Assembly (NCBI RefSeq): GCF_004138485.1
Contig: NZ_RYEV01000010.1
Span: 1-64,000 of the forward strand
Source: Peristeroidobacter soli
GTDB taxonomy: Bacteria > Pseudomonadota > Gammaproteobacteria > Steroidobacterales > Steroidobacteraceae
Direction of reading: 5' to 3'
DNA length: 64,000 bases
Each line of letters starts with the position of its first letter. Within the stretch, counting starts at the first letter, position 1. Positions 10,870 through 47,531 of this stretch are shown here, piece by piece. A program made the translations under genes and the position numbers. The notes below the pieces were generated by a model that searched no databases, was not told where the DNA came from, and saw only the letters and a program-made list of their open reading frames with translations.

Positions 10870-12360
10870 TCACCACTGACGTGTAACCATCGCCCGCACA
10901 TCCTCCGAGAGCTTCTTCAGGCTCGCCTCGACGGTGTAGAACAGATGGCCGCCCTGATAGTACGACGAGCGCACGCGATCCATCGGCCAGCCAGCCTGTG
11001 ATATGAGGTAGTCCATGGCACCGATGGTCGTCTGCGTGTCGTAGTAGCCGTTGCCGACGAACACGCGGAACTTCGGGTTTGCTTTCATCACGTCGCGAAC
11101 CTGCGTGACATACGGCCAGTCACCGAACGGCGATTTGTTGGGGCCCCAGTTCCAGCCGTTCAGGCCGGCGCCGGCGGTGGGCATGCCGGTGAAGTAAGTG
11201 CCGATCTCGGGTACCTTGAGCTCCTTATGAAAGTGCTCGATGGCTGCGGGTGAATAGCGAGACGCGTAGCCCGGCAGCTCTTCATCGTGGTTGCCCTGCG
11301 CCGCCGGTCGTTTGTAACGCGCATCATTGGTGTCGAGGACATACCCAGGGAATAACATCTGCTGATATTGCACCTTGGTGATCTTCAGATCGCGCTCCAG
11401 ATACGACTGCGCTGACAGTCCAGTGAACTCCTGGAGCTTCCGGGCAACAGCTTCACGGCGCTCAGGCGCGGCCGTGTTGCCGAGGAACAGCACATTGAGA
11501 TATTCGCCAGCGCCGTAATCCTGCGCCTCCTTGATGAACTGATCGAACGTCCGGCCTTTGCGATCCGTGACGTTGTGACTCCAGCCTATCGCCGCCAGCG
11601 TGGGCAGCGAGACCACGTAGCTCAGAATGTTTGCTGGACGTTGCGCGTACTCGATGATGTTGACCGCCTGGCCGAGCAGCATGATGCCTTCGAGCGGCAT
11701 GCCGGCCTTCTGCAATTGATCGGCCGCCTCCACCGCCCGCATCGTGCCGTAGCTTTCGCCGACGAGATATTTCGGCGATGACACCCGGCGGTGAGTTCTC
11801 GCCCACTGCTGCACGAGATCGGTCAGCTGCCGGCCGTCGGCGACGACGGAGAACTGACTCTCCGGAGCCACGCCTGGTAATGTGCGGCTGAAGCCGGTGT
11901 TCGCAGGATCGAAGATCACGACGTCGGCCACATCGAGCGGCGCATAGACGTTGTCGATGACCTTGAAGCTCGCAGGATCGACGCTGATGTCATCCGGGAT
12001 CGCGACGCGCTTCGGTCCAAATGCGCCCATGTGCAGCGGTGTCGTGGCCACGATGGGACCGCCGTTGAACACGAACAGGACGGGACGCGCGGATGCATCG
12101 CTGTCCTTGGCAATGTAAGAGGTTGATACGAGGCGCGCGACGGGCTTGCCGGAGGCGTCCGTGACGTCGAACGGCTCGACGACGGCCTCATACCTGATCC
12201 GTTTGCCCCCAAACGTTCCTTTGTGATGGGTAACGATGGGGCCTGGAATATTCACGGCACCAAACGGCGAGGCAGGCGCATCGGCGGACGCATCGATCGA
12301 GTAGATGGCGATGGTGAGCGTAGCCATCGCGATGGCGGCAGAAAGGCGCATACGAATCAT
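10870..12360 (-). CDS. Exported S10-family serine carboxypeptidase-like protein (divergent copy)
   Basis: This 496-residue protein has a signal peptide (about residues 1-27, ending IDASADA). The S10 fold is recognisable by LVGESYGT (nucleophile Ser), GNGYYDTQTT (catalytic Asp) and GGHLFYT (catalytic His). The canonical NGGPGS oxyanion motif is altered to FNGGPIVATTPLHMG, so activity or specificity may differ from the sister enzyme encoded at 15,096-16,595. It is the last gene of a minus-strand operon, 14 bp after the amidohydrolase-like gene. S10 enzymes remove C-terminal residues from peptides; periplasmic location is inferred from the signal peptide. Confidence 0.82.
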   Translation of the reverse strand: MIRMRLSAAIAMATLTIAIYSIDASADAPASPFGAVNIPGPIVTHHKGTFGGKRIRYEAVVEPFDVTDASGKPVARLVSTSYIAKDSDASARPVLFVFNGGPIVATTPLHMGAFGPKRVAIPDDISVDPASFKVIDNVYAPLDVADVVIFDPANTGFSRTLPGVAPESQFSVVADGRQLTDLVQQWARTHRRVSSPKYLVGESYGTMRAVEAADQLQKAGMPLEGIMLLGQAVNIIEYAQRPANILSYVVSLPTLAAIGWSHNVTDRKGRTFDQFIKEAQDYGAGEYLNVLFLGNTAAPERREAVARKLQEFTGLSAQSYLERDLKITKVQYQQMLFPGYVLDTNDARYKRPAAQGNHDEELPGYASRYSPAAIEHFHKELKVPEIGTYFTGMPTAGAGLNGWNWGPNKSPFGDWPYVTQVRDVMKANPKFRVFVGNGYYDTQTTIGAMDYLISQAGWPMDRVRSSYYQGGHLFYTVEASLKKLSEDVRAMVTRQW

Positions 12361-12374
12361 GAAGAGTGGTCCAC

Positions 12375-13643
12375 CTAAGGAGTGAGCACGGATTTGATGT
12401 AGCGATCGCGTAGCTGGCGGTTACGCGCGGCCAGCGATTGCTCGACGCCGCGGATCATCACCATCCGGGCCACGCTCGTCGTTTCCAGCGGGTCGCCGCT
12501 CCACAGCACGAGATCCGCGTCCTTCCCCTTCTCGATAGAGCCGAAGCGATCGGCGAACCCGAAGATGCGGGCAGGGTTGAGGGTGATTGCCGCCAGCGCG
12601 TCGTGAGGTGAGAGCCCGAAGCGTGCCGTGCGGCCGGCGATGAACCTCGGCGTGCGAATCAGGAACACGATGCGTGCCACGCTGGGTTTGAATGCAATCA
12701 GCACGCCGGCATCGTGCAGGATTCTGGCGTTCTCGTAAGTGGCGTTCAGGCTTTTGAAAGTGAAGGCTTGGTTCTCTTCGGCATCGAGCACCACGGGCAC
12801 CTTGGCGGCCGCGATCTCATCCGCCAGCATCCAGGCCTCGGCGGCGCCGGAGAGAATGATTTTGACGTTCTGCTCGCGAGCCAGCGTGAGGATGTTGTGA
12901 ATGTCCGGCGCCCGATCGACTTCCACGAGCAATGGCTGGCGTCCTTCGACGACCGGGATCAGCGCCTCCAGATCGGCCCGCGAGAGCGATTGTTCCTCCA
13001 GGCGTGCCGCATCGAAACTGCCGCGATTCTTCGCATAGGCTCGGGCATCCGCGAACGCCTGGCGCAGTCGAACTTGCAGTGCGCCCTGCCCGCCGCCCGC
13101 GACCGCCTCGCCCTGCTCGCCCGTATCCAGAAACATGGCGGCGTGACGTTTGACCGTGAGGTCGGCGGCATCGCCCAAGTGAATGATCGCGACCTGGCCG
13201 CCGAAGATGCGCGTCACATTCGGGCCGCCCGGTGCGTTCGGCGCGACGACCGCCCGCGTGACGCCTTCGATACGCGCCTCGCCGATCTGCGGTGACGTGG
13301 GCACGACGTCGTAGGAAACATCGAAGGCGGCGCTCAGAGTGGGGTTGGTCGAGGCGCGGCCGGCATAGCCCGACCCGATCGTGTCGTTGATCGCAAGCGG
13401 CGTGACGGTCGCAACCATGCCGGGCGTCAGGATCTGACCCTTGGCGTCGATGACCCGCGCATCGCTGGGCACGGCGACGGACTTTCCGACCGCCACGATC
13501 GTTCCATCGCGAACGACGACGGTGCCACCATCAATGTCGCCGGCAGCGCCCATCGTCAGGATGCGAGCGTTGGTGATGGCGATGGTTTCGGCGTGCGCCG
13601 TCACCGCCACTACGGACAGCAGCAGTGCTCGAAGCAACATCAT
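12375..13643 (-). CDS. Exported amidohydrolase-like protein lacking the HxH metal motif
   Basis: This 422-residue protein has a signal peptide (about residues 1-18, TAHAE) and the beta-sandwich opening of imidazolonepropionase-type amidohydrolases (ITNARILTM, VVVRDGTIVAVG, LTPGM). Where active members read TPGxxDxHxH, this one reads TPGMVATVTPLAIND, so the first two metal-ligand histidines are absent. The C-terminal ITLNPARIFGFADR and GKDADLVLWSGDP blocks are conserved. Such metal-less members are often found beside a catalytically complete paralogue. Here the complete one is immediately upstream with a 4-bp start/stop overlap, which suggests a co-translated heteromeric partner (inference). 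Confidence 0.82.
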   Translation of the reverse strand: MMLLRALLLSVVAVTAHAETIAITNARILTMGAAGDIDGGTVVVRDGTIVAVGKSVAVPSDARVIDAKGQILTPGMVATVTPLAINDTIGSGYAGRASTNPTLSAAFDVSYDVVPTSPQIGEARIEGVTRAVVAPNAPGGPNVTRIFGGQVAIIHLGDAADLTVKRHAAMFLDTGEQGEAVAGGGQGALQVRLRQAFADARAYAKNRGSFDAARLEEQSLSRADLEALIPVVEGRQPLLVEVDRAPDIHNILTLAREQNVKIILSGAAEAWMLADEIAAAKVPVVLDAEENQAFTFKSLNATYENARILHDAGVLIAFKPSVARIVFLIRTPRFIAGRTARFGLSPHDALAAITLNPARIFGFADRFGSIEKGKDADLVLWSGDPLETTSVARMVMIRGVEQSLAARNRQLRDRYIKSVLTP

Positions 13644-15091
13644 GGCGTGCTCCCGAGTCCTTCAGGCGCTGGCCGTGCAGGTGACACCGGGCGTCGCACG
13701 TTACCCAGTTCGAAATCAGAGGCAGGCGTTGGCGAGGGCGCTGCGCGGTCGCTGACCAGCACGCCGTCGATGAACACCAGATCCGGCATCGAGTACACAC
13801 TGAACGGATCGGCGCTCCAGAGCACCACGTCCGCCATCTTGCCGGGCTCGAGCGAGCCGGTTCGATCCGCGACGCCGATGATCCGGGCCGGATTGATCGT
13901 GAGCCATCGGACAGCTTCCTCAGGCGTCGTGCCCAGGCCCGCCTCGCGGCCTGCGGTCATTGCGCGCGCCGCCTCGTGATTCAGGTGCTGCAACAACATC
14001 ACGTTGTCGGAATGCATGGCGGCCACGCCGCCGGCTTTGGCGACGAACGCGGCGTTCTCCATGATGGAGTCGTAGGCTTCCATCTTGTAGCCGGACCAGT
14101 CACCGGCCCAGGTCACGACGGCGATCTTCTCCCGCGCCAGCAGCGGTGCGATCTTGAAGGCCTCGGTGGCGTGATGAAACGCGGCGATCTGGAAACCGAA
14201 CTCGTGCGAGAGGTCGATCATCTGCACCATCTCATCGGCTCGATAACAATGAATGTGAACTTTGATATCGCCACGCAAGGCCGCGCCGACGGTTTCGAGC
14301 ATCAAGTCGCGCTTGGGTGGGTCTCCCGTCCCGCGTCGATGATAGTCAGCCCACTTCTGCGCGTACTCCGCCGCCGTGATGAACGTGGTGCGATAGCCGA
14401 GCATGTTCCCGGCACGCGTGGCGGGTCGTCCGGGACCGCCAGTTGGATTCTCGCCGCAGGCCATCTTCAATCCGGACGGCGCGCTGGGAAATTTCATTCC
14501 TTGCGTGCTCGTGGCGCTCACGTTCTTCAGCGTCACGGTGCGGCCGTTAAACAGGGTGCTGGAGCCCGGCAATATTTGTAACGTCGTGACACCAGCCGCA
14601 CGCGCTCGCTCGAACATCGGATCCTGCGGCCAGATTGCATGCTCGATCCAGATGCCGGCGGCAGTCGGGCCGGTCTCATTCCCGCCTTCGCCATTGGCGG
14701 CACCAGGGCTGGAGCCCGAGCCGATGTGGGCGTGTGGATCGATGACGCCCGGCGTGACCCAGCGGCCAGCGGCATCGATCACGCGTGTTCCCTCAGGGAT
14801 GGCTACGTCACGACCGACGGCCACGATTTTTCCATCACGGATCAGCACCGCGCCGCCGTCGATGCGCGGACCGACCGCCGTCAGCACCGTCGCGTTGATG
14901 ATCGCAACCGCAGGCGCAGGCGTCGGTTGGTACGTCGATGCGAACGGATCGGGCCGCTGCGCAGGATCCAATCCAGGCGGCACCACACGCGGCGCCATCG
15001 CCGCAGATTTCACCGGCGCCGTGGAGCACGCAGTGAGAAATGCGAGTCCGGCAATCGAGCCCGCGAGGGCAATGAACTTACGACTCGACAT
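13640..15091 (-). CDS. Exported lipoprotein-type amidohydrolase
   Basis: From the ATG at 15,091 this is 483 residues. I prefer that start because it places a lipoprotein signal at the N-terminus (MSSRKFIALAGS, then LAFLTACS, with Cys as the lipidation site); upstream in-frame codons overlap the preceding gene. The metal-dependent amidohydrolase motif is intact: VTPGVIDPHAHIG carries the HxH pair, later histidines occur in VHIHCYRADEM and AAFHHATEAF, and AAMHSDNV supplies the final Asp. The C-terminal TINPARIIGVADR and MADVVLWSADPF close the beta-sandwich. It lies 4 bp after the S10 peptidase gene and overlaps the metal-less paralogue, so all are one operon. The substrate is probably a cyclic amide, dipeptide or ureido compound; it cannot be fixed from sequence. 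Confidence 0.86.
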   Translation of the reverse strand: MSSRKFIALAGSIAGLAFLTACSTAPVKSAAMAPRVVPPGLDPAQRPDPFASTYQPTPAPAVAIINATVLTAVGPRIDGGAVLIRDGKIVAVGRDVAIPEGTRVIDAAGRWVTPGVIDPHAHIGSGSSPGAANGEGGNETGPTAAGIWIEHAIWPQDPMFERARAAGVTTLQILPGSSTLFNGRTVTLKNVSATSTQGMKFPSAPSGLKMACGENPTGGPGRPATRAGNMLGYRTTFITAAEYAQKWADYHRRGTGDPPKRDLMLETVGAALRGDIKVHIHCYRADEMVQMIDLSHEFGFQIAAFHHATEAFKIAPLLAREKIAVVTWAGDWSGYKMEAYDSIMENAAFVAKAGGVAAMHSDNVMLLQHLNHEAARAMTAGREAGLGTTPEEAVRWLTINPARIIGVADRTGSLEPGKMADVVLWSADPFSVYSMPDLVFIDGVLVSDRAAPSPTPASDFELGNVRRPVSPARPAPEGLGSTP

Positions 15092-15095
15092 CAAT

Positions 15096-16595
15096 CTATT
15101 TCTTCGCTCCGGCAATGAATGCGCGAACATCTTTAGCGAGGGCCTCGCGTGCCTCGGTGCCCAGGTACGGCATGTGTCCGGATGGATATAGATAGAGCTG
15201 CGTCGCGTCCAACGGGATGCCCGCATGTGCGACGGTGTAGTCCGCCGCGCCGAGTGTCGTCACGAGGTCATAGTAGCCGGTGCCCACCATGAGTCGCAGT
15301 TGTGGGTTACGCCGCATGGCGACGGCAAGGTCAGTAGCGAAGTTCTTATCCGCGCCACCGCCCGGGCCACGACCGTAGTCCCACGGGCCATTCACTGCGC
15401 GGAATGCGATGGGCTGATACTCGTCGGCGATGGAGACGCCAAGGTCCTTGCGTGCATAGAGGTTATAAGCTGCAACGAAGCCCGGCACGTACTGTCCCAT
15501 CGCGGGATCGTCGGCCACGGGGTCTTTGCCGCTTGCTGCCAGAGGCAGGGTGTAGCGACCGTCGTACATACCCAGCTCCTTGCCCTGATCGGCAAGCAGT
15601 GAGCGTGCAAACGCGCTGGCATTGAGGCGCAGATTGTTCTCGCGCACGACCGCAGGCGACAGTCCAATGAGCGCCGCGAGCCGGTTCACGACGGAGTCAC
15701 GCTGAGCGTCCGTCAATCGTGAGCCCGCATGCAACGCTTGCAGATATTCCTCATTGATGAATTTGTTGGCAGCATCGACCTGCCCTGCCGCCGAGCACCC
15801 CGTCACTTTGCCGTGATAGCAAGCCGTCGCTGCGAGCGTCGGCAGCGTGTTGATGTAGCGGCCATCGTCTCCAGCAGATCCGCCCATATCCATCGCCTGG
15901 CCGAGCAGAATGACACCGTTGAGGGTTGTGCCCTCCATCGACCCGGTTTCCATCGGCCCGCCGGCGAGCAGCCGTGCGACCACGGCGGCACGAATCGTTC
16001 CGTAGCTTTCGGAGAGCAGATACTTCGGCGCGTTCCAGCGATCGTTCTCACGCGTCCAGCGCTGAATCAGCTCCACAGTCACCTTTGCATCCTGCGCCGT
16101 GCCGTAGAACTGCTCCGGCTTGCCGTCCGGCAGGATGCGGCTGAAGCCCGTGCCGACCGGATCGATGAGCACGATGTCTGCGGCATCGAGCGGGCTGTCG
16201 GGGTTGTCGACGGTGTTGAACGGCGGCACCGTCTCCGGCTTCACCACATCCTTGAAGTCGATACGGCGCGGGCCGACGTAGCCCATGTGCAGCCAGATCG
16301 AGGCCGAGCCCGGGCCGCCGTTGAAAACAAACATCACGGGTCGCTGCGCGCCTTTCGGAACATCGCTACGGATGTAACTCGTCGTGAAGATGCTGGCTGT
16401 GCGCTTACCGGCAGCATCGGTGATGAAGCGCTCCTCGACGATGGCCGAGTAGCGCAGCTTCTGCCCGCCGAACACACCCTGGTGATTCGAAGCGAAGCGA
16501 CGGCCGTCCGCGTCGGCACCGTGACTTGCGAGTGGTGCGCTGGCCACGAAAGCCAACAACACCGCAACCTTGCGAGCAAGGGTCAATGGTTTCAT
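15096..16595 (-). CDS. Exported S10-family serine carboxypeptidase
   Basis: This is 499 residues from the ATG at 16,595, chosen because the signal peptide MKPLTLARKVAVLLAF, ending SHGAD, starts there. The S10 elements are intact: FNGGPGSASIWLHMG (oxyanion hole), LSESYGTIR (nucleophile Ser, with Ser replacing the usual Gly before Glu), GTGYYDLVTT (Asp) and PSGHMPYLG (His). It probably trims C-terminal residues from peptides in the periplasm. It is the first intact gene of the four-gene operon, and a TonB-receptor fragment lies immediately upstream on the same strand. Confidence 0.87.
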   Translation of the reverse strand: MKPLTLARKVAVLLAFVASAPLASHGADADGRRFASNHQGVFGGQKLRYSAIVEERFITDAAGKRTASIFTTSYIRSDVPKGAQRPVMFVFNGGPGSASIWLHMGYVGPRRIDFKDVVKPETVPPFNTVDNPDSPLDAADIVLIDPVGTGFSRILPDGKPEQFYGTAQDAKVTVELIQRWTRENDRWNAPKYLLSESYGTIRAAVVARLLAGGPMETGSMEGTTLNGVILLGQAMDMGGSAGDDGRYINTLPTLAATACYHGKVTGCSAAGQVDAANKFINEEYLQALHAGSRLTDAQRDSVVNRLAALIGLSPAVVRENNLRLNASAFARSLLADQGKELGMYDGRYTLPLAASGKDPVADDPAMGQYVPGFVAAYNLYARKDLGVSIADEYQPIAFRAVNGPWDYGRGPGGGADKNFATDLAVAMRRNPQLRLMVGTGYYDLVTTLGAADYTVAHAGIPLDATQLYLYPSGHMPYLGTEAREALAKDVRAFIAGAKK

Positions 16596-16596
16596 T

Positions 16597-16764
16597 CTAA
16601 AAATTTCGCGTGAACGCCCATGTAGTACCGTCGCCGCCGCTCGAAAATGGAATCGACGCGTCGAACCCCAGGCCTTCGAAGTCATCCTTGAAGAGGTAAT
16701 TGATCACACCGCCCATCGCGTCCGAGCCGTACACGGCCGCACCGCCGCCCGAGCTGTCGCCGTT
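16597..16764 (-). pseudogene. Fragment of a TonB-dependent receptor plug domain
   Basis: Within a 118-codon frame, the part at about 16,764-16,650 reads SSGGGAAVYGSDAMGGVINY followed by LFKDDFEGLGFDAS. This is the well-conserved end of the plug domain of large TonB-dependent receptors (GGxSAVYGSDAxxGVxNxxxKDDFEG). The frame then ends at GDGTTWAFTRNF and a stop at 16,597, immediately before the S10 peptidase start. A full receptor would need about 700-900 residues, so this is a relic whose barrel has been lost. It suggests the operon once included an uptake receptor for its substrate. Confidence 0.65.
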
Positions 16765-36715: not shown

Positions 36716-37671
36716 AACGCCGGCAACGCGGTGTCGCGCTCATCATGGCGGTGCTCATCGTGGCACTCGCCACCATGCTGGCCGCGGAAGTCGGCTTCCG
36801 TGGCTATCTGGACCAGCGCCGCACGGTCAACACGTTCTCGCTCGATCAGGCATTCGAGATCGCGATGGGCGGCGAAGCCTGGGCCTCGGACGCGCTGCGC
36901 CGGGACAAGATGCAAGGGGGCAACAAGACCGACGACTTCACCGAAGAGTGGGCCACGCCGATTCCGCCGATTCCTCTGGAAGACGTGGGCGGTGAGTTCG
37001 AAGGCCAGCTCGAGGACCTGCAGGGCCGCTTCAACTTGAACGATCTGGTGACATTCGATGAGTCGGGCCAGAGCACCATCAATCAGCAGGCGGTCGAGCG
37101 CTTCCAGCGCTTGCTGACGCTGCTCGAGATCGAGCCGAAGTGGGCCGGCTACATCGCCGACTGGATCGACTCGGACAACAATCCCGGTTTTCCCGATGGC
37201 GCCGAGGATCCGGTGTACACGAATCTTTCGCCGCCCTACCGCACCGCCAATATGGCGATCACCCGCGCCAGCGAGCTGCTGGCCTTGCCGGAATTCGGCG
37301 CCGAGCGCTATCGCAAGCTCGCACCGTTCGTCACGGCTTTGCCGCCGGGCACACACGTCAATCTGTGTACCGCCGCGCCGGAGTTGCTCGATGCAATGAT
37401 TGGCGACAACCGGGAGTTCACGCTCGGGCGCGAGACCGGCAAGCAGACGCGCGCGCAACGGTGTTTCCCGAGCCAGAGCGAGTTCGAAGCGAGCCTCACG
37501 CCGGATCGCAAGCAGGAACTGGAAAACATGCTCGGTGAATCCAGCGACTACTTTCTGGCCACGATCTGGGTCACCCTTGGCACTCAAAGGTTCACCCTGT
37601 ACAGTTTGTTGTATCGAAGCGGCGGCGCCAACCAGGTCCGTCCCATCCTAAGAAGCTACGGAACGCTCTGA
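36712..37671 (+). CDS. gspK: Type II secretion pseudopilin GspK
   Basis: This 319-residue protein is the large tip pseudopilin, which caps the pseudopilus. Its leader is KRRQRG followed by VALIMAVLIVALATMLAAEV. Conserved blocks are DLQGRFNLNDLV, IADWIDSDNNP and FVTALPPGTHVNLCTAAPEL. Family members bind calcium through the acidic central region. It overlaps gspL by one base (TGATG). Confidence 0.93.
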   Translation: MKRRQRGVALIMAVLIVALATMLAAEVGFRGYLDQRRTVNTFSLDQAFEIAMGGEAWASDALRRDKMQGGNKTDDFTEEWATPIPPIPLEDVGGEFEGQLEDLQGRFNLNDLVTFDESGQSTINQQAVERFQRLLTLLEIEPKWAGYIADWIDSDNNPGFPDGAEDPVYTNLSPPYRTANMAITRASELLALPEFGAERYRKLAPFVTALPPGTHVNLCTAAPELLDAMIGDNREFTLGRETGKQTRAQRCFPSQSEFEASLTPDRKQELENMLGESSDYFLATIWVTLGTQRFTLYSLLYRSGGANQVRPILRSYGTL

Positions 37672-38942
37672 TGCCGGAAAACCTAGTTGTCCGCTTGCAT
37701 CCCGTCGCGGCCGCCTCCCAGGGCGAGTCGCAGACGGCACCCCCACAGGCCGAATGGTTGCTCATCGACGGCACCGGCGCCCGCCGAGGCAATGTCTCGT
37801 GGGGCTCGCTCAACGATGCCGCCGAACAGTCACGCACCCACAAGACCATCGTGCTGGTGCCGGGCACCGATGTGCTGCTCGCCGAGCCGGTTCTGCCGGT
37901 GAAGAGTAGCGGCGCGAAGCTCGCCCAGGTCGTGCCCTTCGCTCTCGAAGAACACCTCGCGGTTGACGTCGAAGACATGCACTTCGCGGTCGGCAAGCGC
38001 GGTTCCGCCCCTGGCACACCAGTCGCCGCCGTCGCGCGTGCTCGCATGGATGAGTGGGTCGATCTGCTCAAAGCGGTGGGCCTGTCCACCGACACGATCT
38101 ACGCCGAGACCAGCGTGCTGCCGACGGTGACGGGCGCGGTCGCCGTGCTCATCGATGGCAAGCGCTTGTATGTGCGTCGTGAGAATCAGCCCGGCACGGT
38201 CATCGAGGTCGAGCCGCTGATCGAAGCGTTGCAGATGGCGCTCGCAAGCGGCGAGGAATCCCGCGAGCACGTGACCATCTTCGTCTCCGAAGAAGATTAC
38301 GAGCGCGAGCGCGAATTGCTCGAAGGCCTGCGCGAGTTCACCGCGAGCCTGCAGTTGAAGCTGCTGCCGGATGGTCCGTTGCCGCTGCTCGCGAGCAACA
38401 TCTTGAAGAGCGGTGCCGTGAACCTGCTGCAGGGGCCCTACGCCGCCAAGACCAAGCTGAATGTTTCTTTTGCGCCGTGGCGCTATGCCGCGATTCTCGC
38501 CGCCGTGTTCGTCGCTGCGCACGTCGGCGTGAAGAGCTGGCAGTACTTCCATTACAAGAAGGTCGAAAGCACGCTCGATGCGCAGATCGCGGAAGTCTTC
38601 CAGCAATCGTTACCGGGTGCCCCGGTGCCCGATCCGCTGGAAGCACGTCGTCAGGTCGAGCAGATTCTGGGGCAATTGCGCGGCACCGGCCCGACCAGCG
38701 GCATGCTCACGACGCTCGCAATGTTGAGCGAGGCCATGGCGCAGGCCCCCAATACGAATATCGAAGCGCTCTCCTATCGAAACAATGTCACGGATCTGCG
38801 CGTGCTCACGCCGTCGGTCGACACGCTCGACAAAATCCGGCAAGTGGCCGGTGAGCGCGGCGTGACCGCCGAGATCCAATCCACCAATCCGCGCGACCAG
38901 AAAGTCGAGGGTCGGCTGCAGTTCAAGAAGGCAGGCGCGTGA
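37671..38942 (+). CDS. gspL: Type II secretion inner-membrane platform protein GspL
   Basis: This 423-residue protein has an actin-like cytoplasmic domain (about residues 1-250), one transmembrane helix at about 268-285 (WRYAAILAAVFVAAHVG) and a ferredoxin-like periplasmic domain. KSSGAKLAQVVPFALEEHLA is the conserved segment of the cytoplasmic domain. GspL docks the GspE ATPase to the platform and pairs with GspM, encoded next with an overlapping start. Confidence 0.92.
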   Translation: MPENLVVRLHPVAAASQGESQTAPPQAEWLLIDGTGARRGNVSWGSLNDAAEQSRTHKTIVLVPGTDVLLAEPVLPVKSSGAKLAQVVPFALEEHLAVDVEDMHFAVGKRGSAPGTPVAAVARARMDEWVDLLKAVGLSTDTIYAETSVLPTVTGAVAVLIDGKRLYVRRENQPGTVIEVEPLIEALQMALASGEESREHVTIFVSEEDYERERELLEGLREFTASLQLKLLPDGPLPLLASNILKSGAVNLLQGPYAAKTKLNVSFAPWRYAAILAAVFVAAHVGVKSWQYFHYKKVESTLDAQIAEVFQQSLPGAPVPDPLEARRQVEQILGQLRGTGPTSGMLTTLAMLSEAMAQAPNTNIEALSYRNNVTDLRVLTPSVDTLDKIRQVAGERGVTAEIQSTNPRDQKVEGRLQFKKAGA

Positions 38943-40322: not shown

Positions 40323-40341
40323 TAGTTGCGTAACTTAGGAG

Positions 40342-40357
40342 CTAGGCTTAAGCCTAG
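40342..40357. repeat. 16-bp perfect palindrome upstream of orfA
   Basis: CTAGGCTTAAGCCTAG is fully self-complementary and lies 10 bp before the orfA ATG, inside the IS. It could limit orfA translation in read-through transcripts or bind OrfA, the repressor-like HTH protein of IS2-group elements. Either role is inference. Confidence 0.45.
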
Positions 40358-40367
40358 TCATACGCCT

Positions 40368-40757
40368 ATGTCTTACGGTAGTGATCGTGTTGAAGTGTTG
40401 AGCGGCGTTCAACGCCGCCGTCGGTATTCGGTCGATCAGAAGATGGCCGTGTTGCAGGAAGCAGCGCAGCCGGGCATGTCGATTTCCTATGTGGCCCGCC
40501 GTCATGGTATTGCTCCCAGTCTGATCTTCAACTGGAGGCGGCGGATGAGCGAGGGTGGCAAGGAGGCGGTGCGCGCCGACGATGAAGTCGTCGCCAAGGC
40601 CGAGGTGTTGGCCCTACAGAAGCAGATCCGCGAGCTGCAGCGAGTACTGGGCAAGAAGACCTTGGAGAACGAGATTTTGCGTGAGGCGGTGAAGATCGCC
40701 CACGAAAAAAAACTCATCTCGCGGCTGCCGTCGTTACCCGAGGACGATACGCCGTGA
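40368..40757 (+). CDS. IS3-family transposase OrfA
   Basis: This 129-residue protein has a helix-turn-helix (KMAVLQEAAQPGMSISYVAR then RHGIAPSLIFNWRRR) and a leucine-zipper-like coiled coil (AEVLALQKQIRELQRVLGKK). These are the DNA-binding and dimerisation parts of IS3 OrfA. The ATG at 40,368 is preferred to an in-frame TTG at 40,326. An A8 run at 40,705-40,712 near the 3' end is a slippery site for -1 frameshifting into orfB. Confidence 0.92.
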   Translation: MSYGSDRVEVLSGVQRRRRYSVDQKMAVLQEAAQPGMSISYVARRHGIAPSLIFNWRRRMSEGGKEAVRADDEVVAKAEVLALQKQIRELQRVLGKKTLENEILREAVKIAHEKKLISRLPSLPEDDTP

Positions 40758-41593
40758 GGCGCGTTGCTCAGGTCTTGGGCGTGTCTCGATCGCAGCTTAG
40801 CCAGCGCCTGAAGGAGCCTGGCAAGTCACGCTCGAGCTACCGCAAGCCCGAGGATGAGGACCTGCTGGTTGAGGTGCGAGCCTTGGTCGACGAGCGACCG
40901 ACTTACGGCTATCGGCGCATCACGGCATTGCTGAATCGGGCACGTAGAAAAGCCGGAGTCGGCAAGGTCAATCACAAGCGGGTCTATCGGCTGATGTCAC
41001 GGCACGGACTGCTACTTCAGCGATATACGGGGCGGCCACCAGATCGTGCTCATGAAGGCATCATTCGCACGATCCATCCGAATGCCCGGTGGACCTCCGA
41101 TGGCTTCCAGATCCCTTGTTCGGATCAGGCCGTGCACGTGGCGTTCTGCCTGGACACCTGCGATCGCGAGGTGATCAGCTGGTGCGCCGGCACTAGCGCC
41201 ATCAGTGGCCAGATGATCCGAGATCTGATGCTCCAAAGCGTGGAGCGGCGCTTCAAGGCGACAGCGACGCCTCATCCGGTCCAATGGCTATCGGACAATG
41301 GCAGCTGCTACCGAGCGCACGAAACCATCGAGTTCGCCACACTGTTGGGCCTGGTGCCGTGCTTCACGCCGCCACGTAGCCCGCAGTCGAATGGAATGGC
41401 CGAGGCGTTCGTGAAAACGTTCAAGCGTGACTACGTTCGCGTGAGCGAGACTACGACCGCGAAGTCAGTGCTATCGCAAATCGCGGGATGGTTCGAAGAT
41501 TACAACGAGAACCATCCCCATCGGGGACTGCGGATGAAGTCACCTCGTGAGTTCATCCGCGGTTATCATCAATCCGCAGCCTGTCCGGTCTGA
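40754..41593 (+). CDS. IS3-family transposase OrfB (DDE integrase domain)
   Basis: This 279-residue frame lies in the -1 frame relative to orfA and is open back to the A8 slippery tract, so the real transposase is probably an OrfAB fusion; the GTG at 40,754 is only the first start-like codon. It has HTH_21-type ERPTYGYRRITALLNRARRK and a retroviral integrase (rve) core: first Asp in ARWTSDGFQIPC, second in WLSDNGSCYRAHE, and Glu in SPQSNGMAEAFVKTFKRDYV. It ends inside the right inverted repeat, as is usual. Confidence 0.93.
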   Translation: MRRVAQVLGVSRSQLSQRLKEPGKSRSSYRKPEDEDLLVEVRALVDERPTYGYRRITALLNRARRKAGVGKVNHKRVYRLMSRHGLLLQRYTGRPPDRAHEGIIRTIHPNARWTSDGFQIPCSDQAVHVAFCLDTCDREVISWCAGTSAISGQMIRDLMLQSVERRFKATATPHPVQWLSDNGSCYRAHETIEFATLLGLVPCFTPPRSPQSNGMAEAFVKTFKRDYVRVSETTTAKSVLSQIAGWFEDYNENHPHRGLRMKSPREFIRGYHQSAACPV

Positions 41594-41693: not shown

Positions 41694-42170
41694 CTACGGC
41701 GAACTATATTTCACACGGTATGCCTTGACCAACCGATGCACCGCCGGAAACGCCTTCGGCGAGCCATCGAGCTGACGTAGCGCAGCGAGTTCATCTGCCG
41801 TCACGGGCGCGACGTAAATCGGACTGAGATACGCCGCCGCTACTGCGACATAGCAGCCAGTCGCAGCCGAGGCAAATACCTCCCGCTCCAAATTTCTCAG
41901 TGCTTCGCTATCTTCACTCGGAAGCAGCACGCAAGCCGATGGAAACCCGGCAGCATACTCGGGCAGCGCGCGAACTTTCGACAACCACTCGTGCCCCAAC
42001 GTCTCCAACAGGAACGCACGATTGAGCCTCGAACGCGAGTCTCCCAGCGACACAAATCTGACCGCGCGCCCGGATTCCGTCATCGCCAGGCCGCTCTCCG
42101 GCCCGTCGTAAAAATCGAATGCCAGGACTCGCACGTAAGCGCTGACTTGGTCCTGAAGCAGTTGACTCAT
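41694..42170 (-). CDS. Candidate immunity protein for the Rhs toxin
   Basis: This 158-residue protein has no signal peptide or membrane segment and is probably cytoplasmic. The ATG at 42,170 has GAGAGTGG upstream and lies 13 bp after the toxin stop. It reads SAYVRVLAFDFYDGPESGLA, LGHEWLSKVRALPEYAAGFP and later VTADELAALRQLDGSPKAFP. I recognise no family. In polymorphic toxin loci the gene immediately after a toxin C-terminus normally encodes its specific inhibitor; the immunity role rests on position, size and solubility alone. Confidence 0.55.
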   Translation of the reverse strand: MSQLLQDQVSAYVRVLAFDFYDGPESGLAMTESGRAVRFVSLGDSRSRLNRAFLLETLGHEWLSKVRALPEYAAGFPSACVLLPSEDSEALRNLEREVFASAATGCYVAVAAAYLSPIYVAPVTADELAALRQLDGSPKAFPAVHRLVKAYRVKYSSP

Positions 42171-42183
42171 GACCACTCTCGAA

Positions 42184-43176
42184 TCACTTGAAGAGATCAT
42201 TCCACATTCTGGCAACGTCCTCCGTCACGGGCTCCGGAAGCTCCACGGTATAGTGATCCGGATCTTTGCCCGTCTTCGTCACGCTGAAGCCGGCGTTCTC
42301 CACGTCGCTACATTTTGCACAGCGTACCACCTGGTCCGGGCGCTTGCCTTTCGGGTTGGTGCTGACAGAAACGCCATGAATGTTGACATCAGCGTTCGCT
42401 TTGGCATCTTGCGCCTGCTTTTCCAACGTCCTGCGGCTGTCATGCGGACCACGCCGATAAAGTAGCTTGTCGCCCGCCACACGGGTGATCTGCGCGCCGT
42501 TCTCCGCTTCTTGCACAACATGAGAGACTTGACTCAGGGCCCTTGCAGCATCGACCGTCTTGTCTGCAGCCCGCGCCGCTTTAATTACCTGTCCCGTACC
42601 TGGGATCGGACTCGCCACACCAATAACACTCGCCCCCACATCGATGAGGGCCCCTTGCACACCGACGCCGGTGTAGAGCGCCACACCGAGTTTGCCCACG
42701 TCGTACACCAGGAACGCGACATCCAGCGGACTATGCCCATCCGGGTCAACGAACTTGTAGGGATTGTTGTTGGCGTACGCGTACCGGTTCAGGCTGTGCA
42801 GGTTGTCGGGGTCGAGCTGTGCCGGGTCGATTCCCAGGAAACGCCCCAGCGTCGGATCGTAGTAGCGCGCCCCCATGTAGCTGAGACCCGTGCTCGCGTC
42901 ATAGGACTTGCCTGCAAACCACAGCGAGTTGTTGGCAGAGGCCGACGACTGAACGATGCGATCGCCGTAGGGGCGATATGTTTCCTTCCACACCGGATTG
43001 CCGTTTACGTCGGTCGCGAGCGCCGGGCTTCCGGCCGCGTCGTTGTGAAAGAACGTGGTCGTCTCACCGGCATATGACGGAGTGAGAGCGCAGAGCGCGA
43101 TCAGCGCTACGACTGCCGCGCCGAATCTTCTCAGTAACCGCATAAGGGGATTTTTTTCCTTGATCATATGCTTCAT
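42184..43176 (-). CDS. Exported Rhs core plus C-terminal toxin protein
   Basis: This protein has 330 residues from the ATG at 43,176; Met codons at 43,167 and 43,149 are alternatives. It has its own signal peptide (RLLRRFGAAVVALIALCALT, ending PSYAGE). It then contains what is normally the end of an Rhs shell: TTTFFHNDAAGSPALATDVN, YRPYGDRIV, and the Rhs core YMGARYYDPTLGRFLGIDPA followed by NRYAYANNNPYKFVDPDG. After that the toxin part begins with a Gly/Val-rich hydrophobic linker (VGVQGALIDVGASVIGVASP). It ends in a domain of about 85 residues (RRGPHDSRRTLEKQ, VNIHGVSVSTNPK, RCAKCSDV, HYTVELPEPVTEDVARMWND) that I cannot name. The preceding Rhs gene ends only 8 bp upstream. Confidence 0.85.
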   Translation of the reverse strand: MKHMIKEKNPLMRLLRRFGAAVVALIALCALTPSYAGETTTFFHNDAAGSPALATDVNGNPVWKETYRPYGDRIVQSSASANNSLWFAGKSYDASTGLSYMGARYYDPTLGRFLGIDPAQLDPDNLHSLNRYAYANNNPYKFVDPDGHSPLDVAFLVYDVGKLGVALYTGVGVQGALIDVGASVIGVASPIPGTGQVIKAARAADKTVDAARALSQVSHVVQEAENGAQITRVAGDKLLYRRGPHDSRRTLEKQAQDAKANADVNIHGVSVSTNPKGKRPDQVVRCAKCSDVENAGFSVTKTGKDPDHYTVELPEPVTEDVARMWNDLFK

Positions 43177-43184
43177 TCCCACGG

Positions 43185-46100
43185 TTAGTTGGACAACAGC
43201 AGATCCAACACGGCGGGCAACCAGGCGAGATTGACAACCTTGATCTGGAACACCACGGTATTGCCCGAGTTGCCGGCGTCCCCCGAATAGGTCGCGGTAA
43301 TGGTATGAGTGCCCAACGCCAGGCCCTGCACATCGATGCTTGCCTGGCCGTTGACCACATAGACCGTGCCGAGCAAATTGCCACCCTCGCTAAAAGTCAC
43401 CGTACCCGCTGGCGATGTGCCACCCACGTTGACGGTCAGAGTGACCATTTGATTGGCCTGGATCGCAACTGACGACCTCGTCGGCGTAATCGCGGTGGCC
43501 GGCAGCTGATCGGACACGCGCTGTGCGATTCGTTTGCCTCCCAGATAGATGTACTCGACCAGTTTGTTGGATTGCGTCGGTGTGTACTCGATCAGCAAAT
43601 CGCCGTTGGCCGCATAGAACTCATAGGTCGTGGTACCTGATTTGGCCCGCTTCACCCGCTTGGCCAATCCGTCGTAGCCATATTCGATCTTATTGGCTGT
43701 CGCGCAGTTGATACAGCGCAAGTTGGGCGCGCCATCGTAGGTGTAGGTCGTACCGGCACTGGCCGCAATGTTGCCGTACGCATCATACGAATACGAAGAT
43801 ACACGACTACCTGAGACGCCACTGAGCCGGTTCTGAGCGTTGTAAGCGTAGGAAAGATCGAAAGACCCGAGGCTTTGACTAGTGATATTGCCCGCGCCGT
43901 CGTAGCCCAATGTTCCAGTACCCCACGGGCCCGTTGCGCTGGTCAGGCGATTCAGATTGTCATAGCCGAGAACGCGGTCCATCGTCGCATCGACAGCGTC
44001 GCTGACACCGGTCAGGTTGCCGACGCCGTCATAGGCGTACGTGCTGCTGATGTAGTACGTGCCGGCTCGACGCGAATGAAAGCCGCCCGTCCACAGCCTG
44101 GAGTTCTGATCATAGTTGGTGACGATGCCATTGGCGTAGTCGACCTGCTTGATCATGCCGGACGGCCAGTAACTGACCGTATTGACGTACCCTGAGACCT
44201 GAGTCGGACGACCCAGCACATCGGGAGCATAGCTGACCGTTCGAGTGGAGACCGGATACGTGATCGCAGACAGCTGGTCTCTAGCGTTGTATGCATACAC
44301 CACTCCGAGCACATTGCCGTCGACCGTCAACGATTCGCTGGTCAGATTGTCGTTCGCGTCGTAGCCCATAACGCGGGTCGCGACAGATGAAGTTACAGTA
44401 TTGAGCCGACCGGTCTTGTAATAGGTCTGCGACACTGCCGGCGTGCCATCGGAATAGGTGACGCTGTTGAGTCGATTCTGGCCATCGTAACCAAAGTCAG
44501 TGCGCACTCCACCGACGATTCTGGCCGTCATGTTCCCGGCCGCGTCACGTTCATAGGTCGTCGCCGCTTCAGGGTGAGTCTCCGAGGTCATGTAGTAGCG
44601 GCTGTCATACCCAAACGAGCGAGCAACGCCTGCCTGAGATGCCGCCGTCACGAGATCGACGCTATTGCGCGTTAGCGTGACGTTCGCGGCAGCGTCCGCG
44701 GCGACCACACTCATGAGCACTTTACGATCCGGATCCCCATATGCCCGAAAATGATAAGTGGTTACCTTGCTGCGCTCATCCGTTACGGTTGCACTGCCCG
44801 CGCCATATGAAAACACCTTGTAACTGTTATCCGCGTTAGTAATCTTCGTCAGCCGATCAACAATGTCGTATTCGTACCGCGTGCCGATTGTAGCCCCGGG
44901 ATTCGACTCGAATGTCTTGCGACCGAGGGCGTCGTACTCGGAGAGTGTAGCGACGCCTCCGAGCTCAACCCGCGTGGGCCTGCCGTATGCATCATACGTC
45001 GTAGTCTCAACCAAGCTGCCGCGGGTGGAAGTCTTCGAATTCTGGGTGTAGACAATCGTCGTGGCATTGCCAATGGGTCGGGTAATCGAGGTCACCCGGC
45101 CTAATCCGTCAAAAGCGTAGGAGGTCACTCTACCCTCGCCGTCTGTCAATGACGTGATCTGGCCTGCGTCGCTGACCACTCGCGCGAGGTTTACTCCCTC
45201 CGGCTGGATCTCGGTGCGGGGGATTCCACGCTTATAGCTGGAGAATGTATGCACCAACCCGCGCGGAAAAGTAGTGGTGCTGATGTTTCCTTCGGTGTCG
45301 TAGGTATAGCTCGTCGAAACGCCGTCCGAGGTGCGCGAAGTGAGGCGCCCGTTGGCGTCGAATGAACGCGTAGTACTGGTGCTCGTGCGTGTTTCATCCT
45401 TGAGTCGACTGACGATCCACTTGGTCGTGTCAATGTAGTAGGTCAGGGCCGTGGTACGAGCACCGCCGTTCGGTCCGGATTCCGCCACCGTGCCCGGATT
45501 TCCGTAGCCATCGTAGTTCGAGAACTCCGTCGTGTGGGCTGCGCCGTTCACTGTGACCACCTTGCGCGCCAGCACGGGAATCTGCACGGAATAGTCGAAG
45601 GTGCTGCCCGAGCGTGCCGCCACCAGCGGCACCCTGGCGAATGTGTACTGCCACTTCAACGTCGTGGCGACCGACGTCCATTCGTTCGTTTCAGTGTAGT
45701 TGGTACCGATCTTTCGCTCGATCAGCAGCCCCAACCGCCATGCGCCGCCTCTCGTATACGTGATCGTTGGCGGCCCGCACAGCGCATCTCCCAAGGACGA
45801 AGAAAGCGGAACGTCTCTGAATTCGACAGGAACGAAGTACCCCAGGCCGATATGGCGATACTCCTCAACGCCTGCCGGAGTGGTGATCGTGGTGACATCA
45901 TACTCACCTTCCGCGAGTCCCAGCACATAGGCAAATTGCCAAATTCCATCTGCCGTCGTACGCGTCAGCAGCCGGGGCTCGGTGGTGCTGGGCATGGGCG
46001 TGACGTGGCAACTCTCCGGCGGAGACCATAAGCCCACCTCCGGACTTGCCTCATAGTTGTAGACCACTTCGCCGCCGGAGGGCAGACGTACGGCCCTCAG

Positions 46101-47036
46101 TCGCTTCCAGCCATCGCCCTGCACTGTGAAGTAAGTGGTGAAATACTGGTAGCTCCAGTAAGTGGCGTCGGGGCGAATGGCTTTGTTCAGCGGCCACATG
46201 TCACCTGCCGCGTCATACTCGTACTGGTAGATGATGCCGGCGCTCTCGATTTGAGTCAGTCTCGCGACGGTGTCGCTACCGAACGCCTTCGGCGTGTAAG
46301 TAAGCACGACCGAGCGCCCATCGCTGGCATCGATCCGTGTTGGAACATAGGGTGGTGGTGACGCTGCCGAGGAACCCTGCGTATCCGAATATTGAATGGT
46401 GAGAGTGTTGCCGTTGAGATCGACCACGCGGGTGGCCTGCCACTCGGCGACCTTGTTGCCGAGTGGCCCGACAACCTTTCTGGATCCCATTTCAAACTTC
46501 AAGCCCGCCGGCGACACCAGGGTCGGCAGACCGCCTGGACAGGTCATGCGCCAGTTCGATGAGCTGCGCACCTCTCCGGCGGCACCGTGCCACAAGGGTT
46601 CCTTCGTGCCATTGATATGGAACAATTGATACTTGCGCGAGGTTGCCACCCAGGCTGTACCGGCACACAATGAATCCGTACTGGGTTGCTCCGTAGCGAT
46701 CACCACCGGAGCAACATACAGGGTCCACCCCGCTCCCATGGAGCTCTGCGTGCCGCGCACGCGCCCATAGACGCGATTGATCTCGATGCTCAGTCCACCA
46801 TTGCCCGACAGTTGCAGCTCACGATGCACAAAGGCCAGGTTGCCATTGTGGTAATCGATCTGCTCGGTGGCACCAAGTAACTCGTTGGACCGCTCGACTT
46901 GATTCCTCGCTTGATCGAGCGGGATCGGACTTTGCGCCAGCGCGGATTGGGCAAGGCTCAGTGCCAGAAGCAACGCAGCCACCCAACACATTCTGCTGGC
47001 GACCATGTCAGCGACTTTAAAGAGATATTGGCTCAT
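43185..47036 (-). CDS. Exported Rhs/YD-repeat shell protein with C-terminal Ig-like domain
   Basis: This protein has 1,283 residues from the ATG at 47,036, chosen because a signal peptide follows (MCWVAALLLALSLAQSALAQ). An in-frame ATG at 47,117 would add 27 residues. The N-terminal region reads NELLGATEQIDYHNGNLAFV. Many YD repeats follow (YDALGRKTFESNPG, YERDAAGNMTARIVGG, YDGAGNITSQSLG), ending IEYGYDGLAKRVKRAKSGTT and EYIYLGGKRIAQRV. At that point most Rhs proteins continue directly into the core. Here a bacterial Ig-like domain of about 90 residues follows (TVTFSEGGNLLGTVYVVNGQ ... HTITATYSGDAGNSGN), then a stop. The core and toxin are on the next gene. The shell would form the beta-cage that encloses the toxin. 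Confidence 0.88.
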   Translation of the reverse strand: MSQYLFKVADMVASRMCWVAALLLALSLAQSALAQSPIPLDQARNQVERSNELLGATEQIDYHNGNLAFVHRELQLSGNGGLSIEINRVYGRVRGTQSSMGAGWTLYVAPVVIATEQPSTDSLCAGTAWVATSRKYQLFHINGTKEPLWHGAAGEVRSSSNWRMTCPGGLPTLVSPAGLKFEMGSRKVVGPLGNKVAEWQATRVVDLNGNTLTIQYSDTQGSSAASPPPYVPTRIDASDGRSVVLTYTPKAFGSDTVARLTQIESAGIIYQYEYDAAGDMWPLNKAIRPDATYWSYQYFTTYFTVQGDGWKRLRAVRLPSGGEVVYNYEASPEVGLWSPPESCHVTPMPSTTEPRLLTRTTADGIWQFAYVLGLAEGEYDVTTITTPAGVEEYRHIGLGYFVPVEFRDVPLSSSLGDALCGPPTITYTRGGAWRLGLLIERKIGTNYTETNEWTSVATTLKWQYTFARVPLVAARSGSTFDYSVQIPVLARKVVTVNGAAHTTEFSNYDGYGNPGTVAESGPNGGARTTALTYYIDTTKWIVSRLKDETRTSTSTTRSFDANGRLTSRTSDGVSTSYTYDTEGNISTTTFPRGLVHTFSSYKRGIPRTEIQPEGVNLARVVSDAGQITSLTDGEGRVTSYAFDGLGRVTSITRPIGNATTIVYTQNSKTSTRGSLVETTTYDAYGRPTRVELGGVATLSEYDALGRKTFESNPGATIGTRYEYDIVDRLTKITNADNSYKVFSYGAGSATVTDERSKVTTYHFRAYGDPDRKVLMSVVAADAAANVTLTRNSVDLVTAASQAGVARSFGYDSRYYMTSETHPEAATTYERDAAGNMTARIVGGVRTDFGYDGQNRLNSVTYSDGTPAVSQTYYKTGRLNTVTSSVATRVMGYDANDNLTSESLTVDGNVLGVVYAYNARDQLSAITYPVSTRTVSYAPDVLGRPTQVSGYVNTVSYWPSGMIKQVDYANGIVTNYDQNSRLWTGGFHSRRAGTYYISSTYAYDGVGNLTGVSDAVDATMDRVLGYDNLNRLTSATGPWGTGTLGYDGAGNITSQSLGSFDLSYAYNAQNRLSGVSGSRVSSYSYDAYGNIAASAGTTYTYDGAPNLRCINCATANKIEYGYDGLAKRVKRAKSGTTTYEFYAANGDLLIEYTPTQSNKLVEYIYLGGKRIAQRVSDQLPATAITPTRSSVAIQANQMVTLTVNVGGTSPAGTVTFSEGGNLLGTVYVVNGQASIDVQGLALGTHTITATYSGDAGNSGNTVVFQIKVVNLAWLPAVLDLLLSN

Positions 47037-47192: not shown

Positions 47193-47531
47193 TCAGCTGG
47201 GCGCGTAGATGCAGGAAACGTTGCAGCCCACTGACTGGTCGATGATCCGTATGCCAACTGTGCGATCTGACATCTGACGGGCGAGCAGAATGGCGTACAT
47301 TTCTTCGTAGTTAAGCGACGAGCGCCTCAGCGTAATGTATGTATTCGACGCCAAAGTGCAGCCAAGCAACGCCATGTTGCCATGAGCTTCGACACACGTG
47401 TCGCCGTCACTGGTGCCGTACGAAGCCTTTATTTTTACGTCGCGGCAAGCCCAGGTGCTGCAATCGGCAGCCGCAGTCGCCATGGCCGACATTGCCAGCA
47501 GAACCAGTACTAGCGAACACATTCCCTTCAT
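47193..47531 (-). CDS. Small exported cysteine-containing protein
   Basis: This 112-residue protein has a signal peptide (MKGMCSLVLVLLAMSAMATA, cleavage near AAADC) and six cysteines in the mature part. GGAGAG lies about six bases before the ATG at 47,531. The pattern of a late hydrophobic helix (YEEMYAILLARQM) followed by a beta strand and Cys near the end resembles the exported protein encoded divergently at 48,117, suggesting the same small beta-rich fold. Its stop is 157 bp before the proposed Rhs start on the same strand, and its start overlaps the preceding frame by 4 bp. Confidence 0.65.
   Translation of the reverse strand: MKGMCSLVLVLLAMSAMATAAADCSTWACRDVKIKASYGTSDGDTCVEAHGNMALLGCTLASNTYITLRRSSLNYEEMYAILLARQMSDRTVGIRIIDQSVGCNVSCIYAPS

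Follow-up and report, generated by a model that had tools for sequence, protein, structure and literature searches.

Rhs effectors of the type VI secretion system (T6SS), among them RhsA, RhsP, Tse15 and Tse5, are made from one gene and loaded in the cytoplasm. Shell and core usually belong to one polypeptide in Rhs proteins, a feature missing from the locus described here, which lies in a 64,000-nucleotide stretch of Peristeroidobacter soli (positions 1 to 64,000 of contig NZ_RYEV01000010.1, assembly GCF_004138485.1; hereafter the window) and places them in two open reading frames (ORFs) in different frames. We assign a probability of about 0.74 to the reading that this locus encodes a two-component, Sec-exported Rhs polymorphic toxin composed of a shell and a cargo core.

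Our best reading of its place among described systems is as an analogue of TcB/TcC that is cut elsewhere and lacks Tc domains. In TcB/TcC (YenB/YenC2, TcdB2/TccC3) two polypeptides account for one Rhs cage, as the present pair may do, and the C partner brings core, aspartyl protease and toxin; our core profile matches TcC chains at E-values of 3.5e-16 to 9e-14. The systems differ in that about 580 residues precede the TcC core (residues 581-688 of 5kis_B), whereas none do here after the signal peptide, in that a Pfam scan of the window shell returned no SpvB or Tc domain, in that both halves here bear Sec-type signal peptides, and in that the Pfam toxin matches of the relatives are mostly of nuclease type. 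Judged by its Pfam domains the window system is not a Tc toxin, and its cut falls at another place than that between TcB and TcC. In Yersinia entomophaga several C proteins can use one B (PMC11067744; for Tc toxins see also PMC11435725).

The T6SS effectors share with our locus sequence matches to both shell and core, and also the PxxxxDPxG autoprotease, which is known from RhsA and Tc toxins to serve in freeing the toxin (PMC8765631); they differ from it in that the present proteins have Sec-type signal peptides (by a crude rule) and no PAAR or VgrG in the Pfam scan. Bacterial teneurin-like proteins (TLPs; PMC13018210), many of them with signal peptides, possess adhesion domains, a polymorphic toxin and a downstream immunity gene; they are single chains with an FN-plug and NHL, and the core here is a separate chain. 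Pfam gave no NHL on the window shell at E up to 0.1, the TLP-specific models not having been run. Among the literature matches listed we recognised no description of this shell/core split, most subscription journals lying outside the search.

The two genes and their parts are as follows.

43185..47036, minus strand: Rhs shell protein gene, from ATG 47036 (upstream TTG 47117), with signal peptide, YD/RHS shell and immunoglobulin (Ig)-like domain.
43188..43508, minus strand: C-terminal tail of the shell, a Big_3_5 Ig-like domain (PF16640, E 3.3e-15) plus a hydrophobic C-terminus seen in the tail analysis.
42184..43182, minus strand: core-toxin protein gene, with possible starts at GTG 43182 and ATG 43176, 43167 or 43143 (TIGR03696, E 1.8e-24).
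43069..43143, minus strand: predicted signal peptide of the core-toxin protein if its last ATG is the start (MRLLRRFGAAVVALIALCALTPSYA), based on its sequence, the crude rule and an equal layout in related loci, with its cleavage end placed by eye.
42736..43068, minus strand: mature Rhs core, GETTTFFHND...NNNPYKFVDPDG, with both aspartates expected of the autoprotease dyad.

The shell ORF comprises 1310 amino acids counted from TTG 47117, with ATG 47036 as the likely start and TAA at 43187-43185, and satisfied the signal-peptide rule when counted from ATG 47036. It covers positions 4-1075 of the shell hidden Markov model (HMM) and matched RHS_repeat (E 5.8e-38) in Pfam and YD_repeat_2x (E 6.3e-27) in NCBIfam, with the Ig-like domain at residues 1215-1287; the remaining Pfam rows (Big_13, Glycoprot_B_PH2 and DUF6531) were all weak. 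The shell proper closes with ...EYIYLGGKRIAQRV, beyond which lie the Ig-like domain and the hydrophobic end NLAWLPAVLDLLLSN; ...VEYIYLGGKRIAQRV is followed by 109 further residues before the TAA. The sequence-only reading had placed this stop after an Ig-like domain at the usual shell/core boundary, and the ORF, the Pfam matches and a break point common to all 54 upstream shells of the survey below agree with it.

The second ORF (332 amino acids) begins two bases past the shell stop. Its ATG 43176 stands eight bases past the TAA, as the sequence-only reading had it, and the protein satisfied the signal-peptide rule from all four candidate starts, with a likely cleavage site, by eye, at ...TPSYA/GETTTFFHND. 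The signal peptide thus stands immediately before the first core strand and is followed by the Rhs core with its aspartyl-protease motif PYKFVDPDG, predicted helices and a toxin tail. The further claim that this gene carries the whole missing core and a toxin is upheld for the core, which matches NCBIfam Rhs_assc_core over protein residues 69-150; for the toxin it accords with the dissimilarity of tails in relatives. Beyond the core, the window's tail had no match in Pfam, NCBIfam, PHROG or PDB, and the last 108 residues had no plasmid match.

We searched a genome collection (84,980 species) with a profile of ten mature cores (A1), mostly split ones; 479 relatives were found, and the best 80 of these gave 76 loci. 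By phylum 75 belong to Pseudomonadota and one to a metagenome-assembled genome labelled Chloroflexota; by class there are 40 Gammaproteobacteria, 32 Betaproteobacteria and four unranked. Forty-five loci are spread over 30 named genera, and the other 31 lack a genus. The core lay in an ORF without shell sequence in 73 of the 76 loci, the exceptions being a complete one-gene form (L101) and two loci with part of the shell in the core ORF (L118, L119). A second locus of the same genome (L038) has a shell with a tail of 2158 residues and then a core with its own signal peptide. Among the 73 separate-ORF cores, 67 satisfied the signal-peptide rule from any start, still far above background (376/2688 ORFs when only the first start is used; 587/2688, or 22%, for any start in the first 60 codons, the fairer control), and in 53 loci the called cleavage site lay no more than 8 residues from where the core begins.

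These results bear directly on whether an ordinary one-gene Rhs protein was locally disrupted by a frameshift or insertion. The two frames, and an IS3-type element 3' of the locus, are what such an event might leave; an equal cut with a signal peptide in 67 separate-ORF loci argues against it, as does the nearest relative, Steroidobacter agaridevorans (core 77% identical), which has the same two-gene layout, and a local disruption is accordingly scarcely credible. In our view the survey refutes a frameshift or pseudogene, and the earlier view that this is no simple frameshift holds across the 30 named genera and the unnamed taxa. One-gene forms, which in closely related strains would have told against the sequence-only reading, do occur, but further off (L101, in part L118 and L119, and the genomes G104 and G251 considered below).

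The cut recurs at one place. A shell lay upstream on the same strand in 54 of the 73 loci, and every one of the 54 extends to at least HMM position 1070 (the YIYLGGKRIAQ segment). In one-gene homologues the shell match and the core are 5-25 residues apart in 24 of the 26 rows counted (12 further rows, whose shell match stopped short, were set aside); the two outliers are L119, with 137 other residues between shell and core in one ORF, and L064, with 120. Given the common shell end point and this linker, the cut recurs in one short linker. A different cut, one ORF made of a signal peptide, a few YD repeats and the core, was seen in L118 (9338-10828) and L048 (10097-11470; G056), and the order is inverted in L090 (core 10003, shell 12064-15889) and L115 (core 9991, shell 13329-16626), where a long gene for a signal peptide, an Ig array and the core precedes the shell.

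In 42 loci the shell adjoins the core gene, whose start falls -4 to +111 nt from the shell stop. The 4-nt overlap of 13 of these pairs is a layout for translational coupling, and coupling or frameshifting could in principle yield one functional chain in which the inner signal peptide is idle. Such a device is very improbable: the gaps vary over the range just given, the loci retain a signal peptide that would be cleaved close to the first core strand, cores in the arrays described below stand kilobases away, and a continuous chain would be broken up by shell tails and by Ig domains found before or after the stop.

Those domains vary widely. Past the YIYLGGKRIAQ segment, 23 of 54 shells end within 5 residues, 7 carry 6-130 and 24 are longer; over all shells the tails range from 0 to 2696 amino acids. 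Ten scanned tails yielded Big_3_5 (up to six stretches), TSP3, PKD, fn3 and others, one being without a match, and in loci with a long second ORF, Ig-like domains (N_BRCA1_IG, Big_3_5, Big_7) stood between signal peptide and core in all nine scanned. Since some shells are practically tail-less, tails vary and Ig-like domains can sit on the core side, the Ig-like domain is best seen as an optional part of the cut site and not as its cause. Its proposed role as a general part of the mechanism is thereby not supported, and we reject it as a required part; of the two features proposed for a search in other genomes, the split and the Ig terminus, the first recurs and the second proves optional.

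Shells with unrelated tail domains have in common a short hydrophobic C-terminus (NLAWLPAVLDLLLSN, NVAVMVAINYLILN and similar), seen at 43188-43232 in the window and in L056, L060, L062, L084, L094, L097, L098, L106, L108, L121 and L123. A mean Kyte-Doolittle (KD) value of at least 2.0 near the end occurred in 14 of 37 tails vs. 37 of 624 background ORFs; of these 14, L079 and L110 are not alike by eye and L101, L118 and L119 are one-ORF forms. In L080 it is the core protein that has a comparable hydrophobic stretch, placed after its signal peptide.

We next consider whether the halves belong together. The shell profile (A4, 37 rows) and the A1 core profile match the same solved chains. On the bacterial teneurin-like protein 9ifo, the shell match ends at residue 2008 and leaves 28 positions of its profile unmatched; the core match, from profile position 5, starts at residue 2040; the halves would thus tile this TLP chain. 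Identities of core and shell co-vary over the 27 loci common to A4 and the core alignment (A3, 54 rows), with r = 0.697 and 0 of 5000 permutations as high. Among the neighbouring ORFs of 52 shells (4 kb upstream, 7 kb downstream), the core cluster appeared in 51 loci and was the sole widely shared partner; the other clusters listed (at least 4 loci) either covered no more than 7 loci or consisted of the beginning of the shell itself or of ORFs in another frame or antisense. Shell Cys90 and Cys132 are present in 37/37 rows, which is consistent with oxidative folding after export.

The cores have kept the residues expected of the protease. D81, P103 and D108 are invariant in all 54 aligned cores, and PxxxxDPxG is exact in 50; the window core has both D81 and D108. 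Foldseek searches with an AlphaFold2 model of the core half returned Rhs effectors, Tc chains, teneurins and related proteins in the first 38 rows (73-138 alignment columns), 17 of them at E ≤0.001. In solved relatives, the core sequence matches fall at the C-terminal end of Rhs/TcC/teneurin shell chains.

Several genomes other than the window's have tandem arrays of core-toxin genes, on which the sequence-only reading is silent, and more than one core match was found in 15 of the 76 loci. We examined 12 arrays, namely ten of these 15 loci plus G058 and G069 (L064, L080, L100, L102 and L115 were left out), and excluded matches that scored below 60 bits or spanned fewer than 80 positions, among them a third partial core in L079. 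The 12 arrays hold 39 distinct cores, 38 of them with a signal peptide; the miss is the second core of L051, which lacks its start. Within arrays the cores are 83-100% identical. For the toxin tails, global alignment gives median identities per array of 15-32%, a level that we take, with no computed control, to be that of unrelated sequences. One shell is accompanied by 7 cores in the stretches read of G069 and by five in L062.

Pfam toxin families among the 54 cores include Ntox10 (5), HNH (3), ribonuclease (2) and HNH_5 (2), with single matches to Ntox47, colicin D, colicin E5, URI2, Ntox8 and NucA/NucB. Several of these families are nucleases acting inside bacteria.

The arrays resemble orphan rhs-CT/polymorphic toxin cassettes (Zhang 2012, PMC3482391), in which alternative toxin tips lie behind a main gene; they differ in that the 38 cassettes noted above are genes with their own signal peptide and core, so they could be used without recombination. 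Fragments of a shell 3' end precede extra core genes in L066 (11939-15582) and L099 (1768-2455), a pattern that would fit older cassettes of shell end and core pushed aside by recombination. The array of G058 has no recognised shell ahead of it, just an ORF reading as a PKD/Ig-like tail. L041 and L042 (G058) and L043 (G005) apparently represent one array that turns up in bins assigned to different genera, which probably reflects binning or transfer; because the bins share array DNA, one of them may be contaminated.

Signal peptides on nearly every array cassette are also what would be expected if the core-toxin protein were a stand-alone secreted toxin, similar to the MafB toxins of Neisseria, and the adjoining shell a separate adhesin. 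MafB toxins occur in arrays; MafB-N is a different domain, and no shell partner of it is known. The likeness lies in a signal peptide, a conserved domain and a variable toxin tail, and PMC3482391 gives MafB a signal peptide, a conserved N domain and a variable C-terminus. In 19 of the 73 separate-ORF loci, moreover, no shell lies upstream within the stretch available. We nevertheless consider this alternative unlikely: in solved relatives the core matches the C-terminal end of the shell chains, it still has the autoprotease residues, one-gene relatives occur, and a shell adjoins the core in 42 loci (13 with the 4-nt overlap), all 54 upstream shells ending short of exactly this piece.

Several observations weigh against a two-component exported toxin. 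For the 19 loci without an upstream shell in the stretch available (in L090 and L115 it lies downstream), contig ends or short contigs are only part of the explanation, and some of these cores may work by themselves or with a shell encoded far away. Six of the 73 cores failed the signal-peptide rule (L054, L078, L086 at a contig end, L108, L116 and L124), although by eye three of them (L078, L108, L116) seem to have a signal peptide, and so did 8 of the 46 shells with their N-terminus in the stretch (38 satisfied it). The DPxG proline is absent in 4 of 54 cores, including that of the nearest relative (DEDG), and AlphaFold2 models the core half poorly (mean predicted local distance difference test [pLDDT] 61.7, predicted template modelling score [pTM] 0.31). 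Relatedness of the species was not removed from the permutation test. These loci have no linked gene that would serve passage across the outer membrane. Finally, 73 of 76 is no census, since the loci were found with a split-core query, and 2 of the 4 closest non-own matches in a phylum sample (G104, G251) have shell and core in one ORF.

That sample of 200 genomes gave a core match at E ≤1e-20 in 17, the window's own genome included. The four non-own matches below 1e-35 also include G187 (367 amino acids) and G191 (353 amino acids), short open frames that look split; most weaker matches lie in long open frames. Among close cores, then, the split and the one-gene layout are both common, and 73/76 mirrors the choice of query. 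A core tree of 117 rows had 14 changes of split/fused label vs. a shuffled mean of 25, and the nearest neighbours of the one-gene L101 were split rows. Because 59 of 114 inner branches are open and partial loci (e.g. L137, L139) are probably mislabelled as split, the tree gives no direction of change.

For the exported two-component toxin, the sequence-level support consists of separate genes, two predicted signal peptides, the exact cut, retained protease residues, frequent linkage, and conserved cores with dissimilar tails. Assembly of the halves outside the cytoplasm, though inferred, is well motivated; docking, encapsulation, cleavage, an outer-membrane route, target entry and immunity are likewise inferred, along the following lines. 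The first gene would make an Rhs/YD shell ending with its final strand, and the second a cargo protein consisting of a signal peptide, an Rhs core (base plug and aspartyl autoprotease) and a toxin. Both chains would be exported through Sec. In the periplasm the core would most likely dock on the open end of the shell and close the cage with the toxin inside, then release the toxin by a cut at PxxxxDPxG, in the manner of TcC with TcB. The tails of the shells (Ig, TSP3, PKD, fn3) would probably keep the cage at the cell surface or set its spacing there, where it may be displayed or from which it may be released before delivery to a neighbour cell, and the next gene would supply cytoplasmic immunity:

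41694..42169, minus strand: candidate immunity gene, 158 amino acids from ATG 42169, its putative role suggested by its position right after the toxin gene.

The crude rule found no signal peptide on the candidate immunity protein, which had no match in Pfam, NCBIfam or PHROGs (scanned from TTG 42215). Elsewhere around the locus, a small ORF 5' of the shell (47193-47531, minus strand, 112 amino acids) has several cysteines and a signal-peptide-like start by eye, with no family match. An IS3-type (IS2-like) transposase pair (40326-41593, plus strand) lies between the Rhs locus and genes of a type II secretion system (T2SS; gspL at 37671-38942). We rejected this T2SS as a dedicated exporter because the core is the only widely shared neighbour among clusters of at least 4 loci; it may still be the route. 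Beside the G001 and G011 loci, no T2SS genes were recognised from ORF starts, no family search of those neighbours having been made.

In relatives, extra core-toxin genes behind one shell may load that shell with alternative toxins. Tentatively, and at somewhat less than even odds, the whole may be a modular launcher in which a surface shell is loaded in trans with any of several exported cartridges, while domains at the cut site (Ig, TSP3, PKD, fn3, and in some the shared hydrophobic end) tether each cage. With in-trans loading by several cartridges, one cell could show a mixed set of cages without gene rearrangement.

For annotation, core genes that could be mistaken for truncated Rhs fragments appear, in many Proteobacteria, to be intact genes for exported toxins. 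Encapsulation becomes directly accessible to experiment with such a pair, because its shell and its cargo can be produced apart and then combined. Should assembly follow export, two-chain Rhs cages would be possible in the periplasm without T6SS loading, which would explain the packing of Sec-exported Rhs toxins and give Rhs systems a cartridge mode.

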